Source: Paenibacillus peoriae (GTDB taxonomy: Bacteria; Bacillota; Bacilli; Paenibacillales; Paenibacillaceae). From it: a stretch of DNA of 64,000 nucleotides. Below are positions 44,263 through 45,819 of the stretch, one piece after another. The first letter of the stretch is position 1; every line of letters begins with the position of its first letter. Both the position numbers and the translations under genes were made by a program. The stretch covers positions 5,241,001 to 5,305,000 of the forward strand of contig NZ_CP092831.1 of the NCBI RefSeq assembly GCF_022531965.1, written 5' to 3'. The notes beneath the pieces were generated by a model. The model did no database searches. It saw nothing but the letters and a program-made list of their open reading frames with translations, and was not told the origin of the DNA.

Positions 44263-44709
44263 TTATTGGGGAGGGTCAGATAAAGCAAACATAATTTCGC
44301 CCTCAGCTACTACCGTATCGCCTACTTTAGCCGTAGCTTTCCCTTTGCCAAATGCGCCTTTGGAACGAGTGATTTCCACTTCAAGCGTCAACGTATCCCC
44401 AGGAACCACCTGTCCTCGGAAACGGAAACCATCCAATCCTGCCAAGAATCCGATTTTGCCACGATTGCTCTCTAGGTGCAGTAATGCGACTGCCCCAACT
44501 TGAGCCAGTGCTTCGGTAATCAACACACCAGGCATAACGGGATACCCCGGAAAATGTCCAATGAAATGAGGCTCATTCATCGTTACATTTTTAATACCTA
44601 CTGCTCTTTTCCCTTCCTCCAGCTCAATAATACGATCCACCAATAAAAATGGCGCTCGATGTGGGATAATCTCCTGAATTTGATTAACATCCAATTGCAA
44701 TTTGTCCAT
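44263..44709 (-). CDS. fabZ: FabZ, (3R)-hydroxyacyl-ACP dehydratase
   Basis: 148 residues with the hot-dog fold. The active-site helix is [26 protein letters not shown], with His in PHFIGHFPG and the acidic residue in LITEALAQ. It removes water from hydroxyacyl-ACP in fatty acid synthesis. The ribosome site is GGGAGGAG. In Bacilli fabZ (ywpB) lies near flhO/flhP, as here. The interval upstream holds several hairpins and repeats. Confidence 0.96.
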
Positions 44710-44915: not shown

Positions 44916-45070
44916 GCCCGTGCTTGGTTTTACCCCGCAGTGTTATAAACTTCCCCATCATTATACAGTTATCAGATGCAAAAAGAAAATTACGCAGAAG
45001 TACCATATTGAGTGCTCCTCTTATGGGGTGAAGCGGAGATTCAATTGAGCAAAGGAGGAGGGGCTGCACG

Positions 45071-45185
45071 ATTTATTTGATCTTCCGATCGCTGTTGCCC
45101 CTAAATTTTCTCATTTTATAAAACCTGCAAGGTTAAAATTTAGGGGCAAAGGCGAACGCTATCGCTTCTCCAGATTCAAATAAAT
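45071..45185 (+). repeat. Structured repeat element, copy A
   Basis: The ends form a perfect 10-bp terminal inverted repeat (ATTTATTTGA / TCAAATAAAT). The outer arms ATTTGATCTTCCGATCGCTGT and AAGGCGAACGCT..CGCTTCTCCAGATTCAAAT are shared with copy B (rest of element at 45454-45561). The inner stem is a perfect 15-bp pairing of TTGCCCCTAAATTTT with AAAATTTAGGGGCAA around a loop that includes CATTTTATAAA. No coding frame spans it. Confidence 0.8.
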
Positions 45186-45265
45186 CCCTCCGCCGAGTTA
45201 CTTTTGGCTCAAAAGGAAAGCCTCGCTTCAATAATACTCACTTGCCGTGAAGGGCAGAGAAAACC

Positions 45266-45287
45266 GAAGGCCCCTGTGATGGCCTTC
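45266..45287. repeat. Short hairpin between the structured repeats
   Basis: GAAGGCC pairs with GGCCTTC around an 8-base loop. Confidence 0.5.
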
Positions 45288-45333
45288 ATTGACCACAATC
45301 CATGCGTGCTACGCTGGAGGCCTCTCCCTTAAA

Positions 45334-45378
45334 AGCATAACAAAACCCCGCGCCACTGGCACAGGGTTTTGTTATGCT
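45334..45378. terminator. 15-bp perfect hairpin between the structured repeats
   Basis: AGCATAACAAAACCC pairs perfectly with GGGTTTTGTTATGCT; the loop contains GCC-ACT-GGC, which can pair again. A TTTT follows on the minus strand. It is the best candidate to end the mbl-flhO-flhP-epuA transcript. Confidence 0.65.
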
Positions 45379-45441
45379 ATACTCCCCACACAAATTGCGG
45401 GTGGTTTATTTTAATAAAAGTGGCCCTGATGGCGGGTAGCA

Positions 45442-45575
45442 GCGGAGCGAAGGATTTGAATCTGGAGAAGCGCGAGCGTTCGCCTTTGCAACGGGATTTT
45501 TACATCTGAATAATTTATAAAATAAGAAAATCCCGCTGCAACAGCGATCGTAAGATCAAATCATTCGCGGAGCGA
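45442..45575 (-). repeat. Structured repeat element, copy B, with flanking 9-bp direct repeats
   Basis: The core (45454-45561) is an inverted copy of element A. Read on the minus strand, ATTTGATCTTACGATCGCTGT differs from A at one of 21 positions, and the right arm AAGGCGAACGCT..CGCTTCTCCAGATTCAAAT is the same but for two bases. The inner stem is different in sequence but still pairs (TGCAGCGGGATTTT with AAAATCCCGTTGCA, one G-U). GCGGAGCGA occurs at both outer ends (45442-45450 and 45567-45575), like a target-site duplication. Confidence 0.8.
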
Positions 45576-45606
45576 CCTTTTCCCGCCCCCACTCATTTAA
45601 AGTAAA

Positions 45607-45819
45607 CTAAGGCGCAAATATAAGATCAATGACATGCTGCCAGGTTTTCCACTCGAATACGCCTGACAACCCTTGCTTACCTACAATTACATATCCTGCA
45701 ATTAAGCCGCCTAACAGCGATAACAGGAGCAGCAACGGAACTATGAAATAACGAGCAGTACGCCAGCGGGACTTCGTCTTTACAGGCACCGGACGGGAAT
45801 CAGATTGTTCTTCTTTCAT
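45607..45819 (-). CDS. EpuA-family ('DNA-directed RNA polymerase subunit beta') small membrane protein
   Basis: About 70 residues from ATG 45819; the ribosome site AAGGA overlaps the flhP stop. Residues 1-22 are charged and cytoplasmic (KTKSRWRTARYF), residues about 24-46 are one membrane helix (IVPLLLLLSLLGGLIAGYVIV), and the C-terminus has EWKTWQHVIDLIF. This pattern matches the EpuA family, which many databases label as RNA polymerase beta because of a mis-assigned name. It is likely a small single-pass membrane protein of unknown role. It is translationally linked to flhP. Confidence 0.75.
   Translation of the reverse strand: MKEEQSDSRPVPVKTKSRWRTARYFIVPLLLLLSLLGGLIAGYVIVGKQGLSGVFEWKTWQHVIDLIFAP

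Follow-up and report, generated by a model that had tools for sequence, protein, structure and literature searches.

A large, apparently undescribed family of dispersed non-coding hairpins in Paenibacillaceae

Introduction

Between epuA and a fabZ-like gene of Paenibacillus peoriae lie two copies of a structured repeat, one (copy B) beginning just past the epuA stop and the other (copy A) inverted relative to it. What kind of element occupies this place, and how do its stems stay paired while their sequence varies? The question arises from the window, the whole stretch of 64,000 nucleotides that was analysed, in which an original prediction had seen a folded, possibly mobile repeat that might act as an RNA or protein-binding module. 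We found that copies A and B are two members of a large, apparently undescribed dispersed non-coding hairpin family of Paenibacillaceae.

Results

Two inverted copies with shared strips and unlike stems

The left conserved strip matches GATCTTNCGATCGCTGTTG without mismatch in both copies (shuffles expect 0.05), and the right strip carries 0 and 2 mismatches in 31 positions in A and B, respectively (shuffles expect 0.00). Aligned with each other, A and B give two pairs of inverted repeats, 60 nt (82% complementary) and 62 nt (81%) long. Both copies fold better than all 200 of 200 dinucleotide shuffles on either strand (z from −3.7 to −5.4). Thus, the predicted inverted copies with shared strips are real, and their inner stems do differ in sequence and yet both pair. 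The elements are nevertheless longer than first proposed, since a covariance model (R1, see below) places them at 45054–45210 and 45425–45582, and outer arms, drawn by eye, extend copy A to about 45045–45212 and copy B to about 45412–45606 (Table 1).

The strong hairpin predicted between the copies also proved to be there (arms 91% complementary). It may terminate transcription of the flagellar/epuA genes; it is absent from the output of the terminator scan, which lists only 45265–45288. In more distant species (L096, L100 and L102), one copy ends ~53 nt upstream of fabZ, at a place unlike that of A or B. Of the named records returned by a search with fabZ, those of P. ottowii (99% identity) and P. 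maysiensis (97%), two members of the P. polymyxa complex, stand near the window's species.

Table 1. Coordinates of the features at the window site (positions within the window) and of particular copies elsewhere.
Feature	Position	Strand	Remarks
Copy A, conserved element (model R1 positions 1-159)	45054..45210	+	cmsearch 136.6 bits; copy at same place in nine other records
Copy B, conserved element, inverted relative to copy A	45425..45582	-	cmsearch 157.7 bits; orthologs in nine other records
Copy A, left conserved strip GATCTTCCGATCGCTGTTG	45079..45097	+	
Copy A, right conserved strip GGCGAACGCTATCGCTTCTCCAGATTCAAAT	45151..45181	+	
Copy B, left conserved strip	45539..45557	-	
Copy B, right conserved strip	45454..45484	-	
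Copy A, inner stem-loop, variable stem	45095..45149	+	
Copy B, inner stem-loop, variable stem	45486..45541	-	
Copy A, outer helix 5' arm	45045..45063	+	by eye; outer arms tested as a class
Copy A, outer helix 3' arm	45186..45212	+	by eye
Copy B, outer region 5' side	45582..45606	-	directly after epuA stop codon (45607-45609)
Copy B, outer region 3' side, T-rich end	45412..45446	-	
Strong hairpin between copies A and B, outside the repeat family	45334..45378	.	arms 91% complementary; conserved in nine other orthologous records
Second hairpin between copies A and B, T-rich tail	45265..45288	-	terminator scan, weak: 2 sites vs shuffle mean 1.3
epuA gene, stop codon adjoins copy B	45607..45819	-	PF11772, E 1.1e-9
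fabZ-like gene downstream of the copy pair	44263..44709	-	PF07977 FabA-like domain; ORF
Copy with extra hairpin	L026:1398-1511		
Copy with extra hairpin	L027:1397-1511		
Copy with extra hairpin	L017 1234-1345	-	
Tandem array	G000:C1:4581566 and 4581756		L034, L042
Tandem array	G004:C188:176121-176651		
Tandem array	G032:C1:1150132-1150660		
Tandem array	G209:C1:5421626-5422142		

The family is abundant and widespread

A BLAST-type search with copy A returned 44 rows at E ≤ 10 in the window's own genome (G000; other G numbers denote relatives), fragments and chance rows included. R1, built from 27 distinct copies of that genome, gave 47 rows at E ≤ 0.001 when 150 out of 2,067 first-look candidates were scored; with three opposite-strand echoes taken out, these are 44 places, some holding partial copies. 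Among 59 relatives, R1 found a match in 43, namely in every one of the 36 from the window's genus and in 7 of the 23 from other families of the order, and its scores reach 170 bits in other species. The repeat thus extends far beyond A and B, as the original prediction had supposed. The richest genomes, G011, G016 and G022, gave 147, 143 and 145 rows (150 candidates scored in each, echoes included), and their true copy number may be higher than the rows counted; the poorest, G021 and G018, gave 1 and 5 matches. A class-wide draw of 299 genomes, with nine candidates scored per genome, yielded 28 genomes with a match, 27 of them in the same bacterial family as the window, and the sole match outside it was weak. 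Phage records held no match to copy A, and the two matching plasmid records both come from Paenibacillus cellulosilyticus, with 57% of the query covered. Tandem arrays of two or three copies with a period of ~181–190 bp occur in four genomes (Table 1).

Is the repeat already known? Rfam 15 gave no match at gathering score in the window, and four loci gave only weak hits far below it, which rules out a known Rfam family. Text searches of the literature, whose coverage takes in few subscription papers and could therefore miss a description, did not return one. Neither is the repeat described in passages of PMC8632094, PMC12306157, PMC3446304, PMC5670726, PMC6542083 or PMC3012674; the last of these reports 184 global and 32 local inverted repeats in the P. 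vortex genome, in families that those passages leave unnamed.

Stems covary around near-invariant strips

Each element consists of a core of ~140 nt enclosed by an outer hairpin that varies from site to site. The core contains two strips, CTTMCGATCGCTGTT and AAAGGCGAACGCTNNCGCTTCTYCAG, that are nearly invariant in both clades, together with an inner stem and a second stem whose sequence varies and whose pairing is largely kept. We measured covariation in two alignments: A1, the 27 own-genome copies on which the structure was predicted, and A3, 50 matches from G011 and G016 in a second clade, which were aligned to the model, so that the alignment leans to it. A3 is the fairer test because the structure was predicted on A1. 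In A1, 93.8% of cells in paired columns are standard pairs (77.8% shuffled), both sides change in at least one copy at 22 of 36 pairs, and the covariation score is 0.442, compared with 0.161 when shuffled and 0.046–0.115 when the partner is slid. The corresponding values for A3 are 93.4% of cells, 26 of 36 pairs, and a score of 0.296 against 0.141 and 0.056–0.113. A repeat with conserved strips and compensatory stems is therefore confirmed, about 94% of paired cells forming pairs. The possibility that such copies are chance or trivial look-alike terminator hairpins is barely worth entertaining: hairpins are common near gene ends, but the shared strips are absent from shuffles, the model scores as high as it does in other species, and covariation lies far above both controls.

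In three sets of copies (61 from G000 and G006, 27 and 49), a copy's own outer arms pair with mean energies of −29.0, −20.7 and −22.2 kcal/mol, compared with −22.2, −14.5 and −15.1 kcal/mol for swapped arms. The own partner is the single best one in just 10/61, 9/27 and 9/49 copies because some copies have outer arms in common. Left flanks, compared from copy to copy, are scarcely more alike (0.38–0.40) than shuffled ones (0.36). In some copies an additional hairpin (AGCTTTCC...GGAAAGCT) separates the inner stem from the right strip (Table 1).

Wobble pairs are scarce

At what level is the pairing maintained? A transcribed RNA under selection should tolerate G·U far more than A·C, and 24 distinct tRNAs from the fetched loci, taken as a control, showed exactly this, with 487 Watson-Crick, 42 GU and 0 AC cells. 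The elements showed 2 GU, 11 AC and 32 other mismatches in A2 (27 copies), 7, 25 and 59 in A3 (49 copies) and 32, 56 and 95 in A4 (84 copies), or 41 GU against 92 AC and 186 others in sum, counts that exclude pairs with >20% GU or AC (3, 3 and 2 pairs in A2, A3 and A4) and that come from kindred copies, A4 including orthologs of several species, so that they are not independent events. Among the pairs set aside, a near-fixed T·G (26/27 copies, columns 40/106 of A1) fits the sense strand better than its complement, and another, often A·C in A2 and A3, speaks for the complement. When copies were split by the direction of the flanking genes, AC exceeded GU in most classes, two classes tied and one had neither; the lone class with GU ahead comprised 10 A4 copies between divergent genes (5 vs 4). 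Double changes of transversion type, which no single wobble step bridges, numbered 89 cells to 66 of transition type in A1, and 33 to 150 in A3.

The scarcity of GU relative to AC, set against 42 to 0 in tRNAs, speaks against selection of the ordinary kind on a sense RNA. The pairing is apparently maintained in the DNA and not in messenger RNA. Thus, of the RNA or protein-binding module first proposed, the conserved scaffold with its variable paired stem stands, but the RNA reading is weakened.

Placement relative to genes

We examined placement for 105 copies from G022, G016, G011 and G006 (those in the best-scoring lists and further ones in the stretches concerned), with genes taken as simple ORFs of at least 100 aa. 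Copies are mostly intergenic, 98 of the 105 overlapping no ORF by more than 60 nt and 7 overlapping by more. In G006 they often sit just after stop codons: 17 of 29 have a same-strand upstream gene, which ends 11–59 nt before the model start in 13 and overlaps it in 4. Close neighbours (<2 kb) are mostly convergent, with seven convergent, one tandem and no divergent pair in G000 and 7/7 convergent in the G006 stretches, several of these being orthologous to G000 pairs. Runs of at least four T lie within 45 nt 3' of 33/61 copies of G000 and G006, and the outer hairpin may help to end transcripts.

Such an arrangement would suit a functional 3'-UTR module, co-transcribed with the gene upstream, whose fold either binds a protein or governs how the mRNA ends or how stable its 3' end is. 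The G006 gaps, the T-runs, the strong folds with their covariation, and the start of copy B directly after the epuA stop all agree with it. Gene orientation, however, is inconsistent, since in G022, G016 and G011 40/76 copies are antisense to both neighbours and 12/76 sense to both; T-runs are rarer elsewhere (6/27 and 14/49); and wobble is favoured in neither gene-sense nor gene-antisense copies, nor overall. We consider a 3'-UTR RNA a genuine but minor possibility.

Fixed sites switch subtype

Both copies are present at the window site in all ten records that cover it (the window, L090, L091 and L170–L176), which represent nine species, L090 and L173 being identical in their flanks. Subtypes at this site, assigned by eye, differ between records: copy A is of the first subtype in the window, L170, L172, L174 and L176 and of the second in L090, L091, L171, L173 and L175, and copy B is of the second in L090, L172 and L173 only. 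On a tree of the flanks (2,784 columns, support 94–100), at least four subtype changes are needed at A and at least two at B. G007 and G034, whose flanks are 97% alike, nevertheless differ in subtype at A. A third subtype, TGGTGCTTMCCATCGC with matching CTTGTMCAGCACCA (by eye), in which the first G of GATC is changed to C and a C to G on the other arm, is found in one partner of convergent pairs of G006 (L242, L248 and L245).

What is the mechanism of switching? The same two subtypes come back at A, and an old polymorphism, or alleles passed from one species to another, could therefore take the place of conversion between copies. In the loops, identity across subtypes is 0.77 at A (0.85 within a subtype) and 0.65 at B (0.89), with 0.69 between sites. 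Whole-core replacement as the sole cause is not upheld by these values: it fits copy B, and at copy A the switch may have been a replacement or a change of the stems alone.

In one explanation, the element is a DNA-hairpin cassette in which the two arms of a stem are rewritten to match, pair by pair. Its basis is that, at fixed sites, the inner and second stems change subtype in both arms with the adjacent DNA unaltered and with few wobble intermediates; even so, we think it unlikely. If it were true, the covariation would stem from DNA-level copying, or from an unknown enzyme exchanging cores via the folded single strand, and not from RNA selection.

Orientation relative to the replication fork

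In G022, G016 and G011, 54/76 copies are oriented against the fork (dnaA at 328). The bias is absent in G006 (14 vs 15), and elsewhere it is inseparable from gene direction at these counts, since where both neighbours lie on the lagging strand five copies follow the gene direction and four the fork. A replication-strand bias was therefore rejected as a general rule. Could the hairpin or cruciform nonetheless be a chromosomal site to which a nucleoid, gyrase or replication protein binds? Such roles have been proposed for enterobacterial REP/BIME sites. By analogy with these, a chromosomal site would accord with the presence of the family in all genus genomes searched, with the conserved strips, with positions conserved over species and with the fork orientation of the 54 copies, but it is quite unlikely in our estimate, as the bias fails in G006 and, in the other genomes, is not to be told apart from gene direction.

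Copies are lost by deletion

Thirty G000 loci were compared with fetched G014 stretches. Six lack a G014 ortholog and two match inside repeats only; among the 22 with own-site flanks, 17 hold a full copy in G014, L032 and L048 a shortened one (~90 nt), L056 and L059 have lost it, and L051 is not covered. Locus L056 could be followed through eight species: the element is full in G000 and G032, lacks its inner stem-loop in G004 and G006, and lacks its core in G014 and G015, which share one junction, and in G034 and G007, which share another. The outer hairpin is kept in all eight. Each of the two main clades has species with a partial or full copy, which makes the element ancestral at this locus and its losses later events. 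A first look at L056 against G014 had suggested insertion into a terminator loop, an idea we dropped once six more species showed partial deletions, short direct-repeat junctions and an ancestral element.

G006 copies that are absent from G000 have left remnants there; for the G014 copy at 1153371 (vs L338), the right flank is not alignable in G000. Six short own-genome copies of 87–90 nt lack the inner stem-loop, and four of them share a CGCT junction (by eye). At L046:1853-1978, compared with L309, G000 is ~126 nt longer than G014 beside an element copy. Neither a clean empty site nor a recent transposition was found in the comparisons made, and the readable core-less alleles keep parts of the element, the outer hairpin or short-repeat junctions. 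Hence alleles without a copy do exist in relatives, as the original prediction had expected of a mobile element, but the readable ones look, on their sequence, like deletions with remnants and are not proof of insertion.

Close orthologs also show how pairing fares over short times. In 16 orthologous G000/G014 pairs >80% alike, a total that leaves out two copy pairs of lower identity, 527 base pairs are unchanged, 28 single changes break a pair, 17 give a wobble, 3 are kept double changes and 1 is of another kind. With 28 breaking against 3 kept double changes, pairing seems to be lost at times and restored over longer times.

Element ends and a possible mover

The 9-bp direct repeat GCGGAGCGA at both ends of copy B had been read as a target-site duplication. 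We found instead that a CGCTNCGC box (at most one mismatch) flanks both sides in 24/27 own-genome copies and lies inside the paired part of the element. Pairs 15/144 and 16/143 fall in this box, and 16/143 goes from CG to GC in four copies; in A3, a shorter box, CTNCG, occurs on both sides in 34/50. A target-site duplication is thus ruled out for copy B. A clear one was not found in 100-nt flanks of the 61, 27 and 49 copies either: the longest left/right repeat averaged 6.61, 7.37 and 7.18 in own flanks and 6.51, 6.60 and 6.66 in swapped ones, and repeats of at least 8 occurred in 12, 8 and 12 copies against 8.4, 5.0 and 8.0 expected, which is at best a slight excess. Copies with TTTAT on each side, no more than 60 nt away, numbered 1/61, 1/27 and 3/49 (swapped 0.5, 0.5 and 2.2), which is no excess. 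Judged by this end motif, membership in bcr1, which had been named as the nearest parallel, is not supported.

The family could also be a REPIN-like element moved by a Y1 (RAYT) transposase. Like REPINs, it consists of many intergenic folded copies, and on its complementary strand, mostly the lagging-strand template in three genomes, G·T-type mismatches are in excess (92 vs 41). Y1 transposases (PF01797), however, are present in 14 of 26 genomes tested and absent from the other 12, among them the copy-rich G000, G003, G004, G016 and G032. This largely rules out mobilisation by RAYT, and we regard it as very improbable.

Discussion

How did the family arise, and what keeps its stems paired? With moderate confidence, we read it as an old, mostly vertically inherited non-autonomous hairpin element that is paired at the DNA level and decays by hairpin deletion. 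It would have begun as a mobile but non-autonomous element, with a putative trans-acting enzyme recognising its folded single strand and its conserved strips, and today it would be inherited mostly vertically. Its pairing may be kept either through recognition of the DNA hairpin or by replication or recombination that rewrites both arms (template switching, conversion between copies); selection on mRNA would not be the main keeper.

In the genomes of a large and much-used group of bacteria, the hairpin family is an abundant component, apparently without a name and unmatched by Rfam. Its pairs covary with few wobble intermediates, which makes it a natural test case for asking whether functional RNA must always lie behind strong covariation. 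At L056, full, half-deleted and lost alleles in eight species make the life cycle of a hairpin directly traceable, and the conserved strips can serve as bait for a protein that reads them.

How does the repeat compare with known systems? Rfam structured RNA families share its covarying stems and conserved strips, but the repeat has no wobble preference and no match among them. REP/REPIN-RAYT systems consist of dispersed high-copy extragenic palindromes with a unit of a few tens of nt; the Paenibacillus repeat resembles them in dispersal, extragenic palindromes and copy number, but its unit is 140–200 nt and 12 of the 26 genomes tested lack a Y1 transposase. ERIC and BOX are imperfect intergenic palindromes of ~100–200 bp with structural modules and are similar in being just that, although their host group differs (compared by description only). 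The bcr repeats (bcr1–bcr18) of the B. cereus group are likewise short (100–400 bp), intergenic and of high copy, some with a conserved fold; passages of PMC3446304 place 84/165 and 62/155 repeat copies in the mRNAs of two strains, and passages of PMC6542083 give bcr1 an average of 39 and up to 130 copies per strain and a possible TTTAT-associated mechanism. The Paenibacillus repeat differs from bcr, by description, in occurring in other taxa, in having no TTTAT excess and in having outer helices that differ between sites. By analogy, its nearest known kinds would be these bcr repeats and other folded intergenic repeats, beside which it is unusual for its family-wide spread, for outer helices that vary between sites, for stems that covary with few wobbles and for fixed sites at which the subtype switches.
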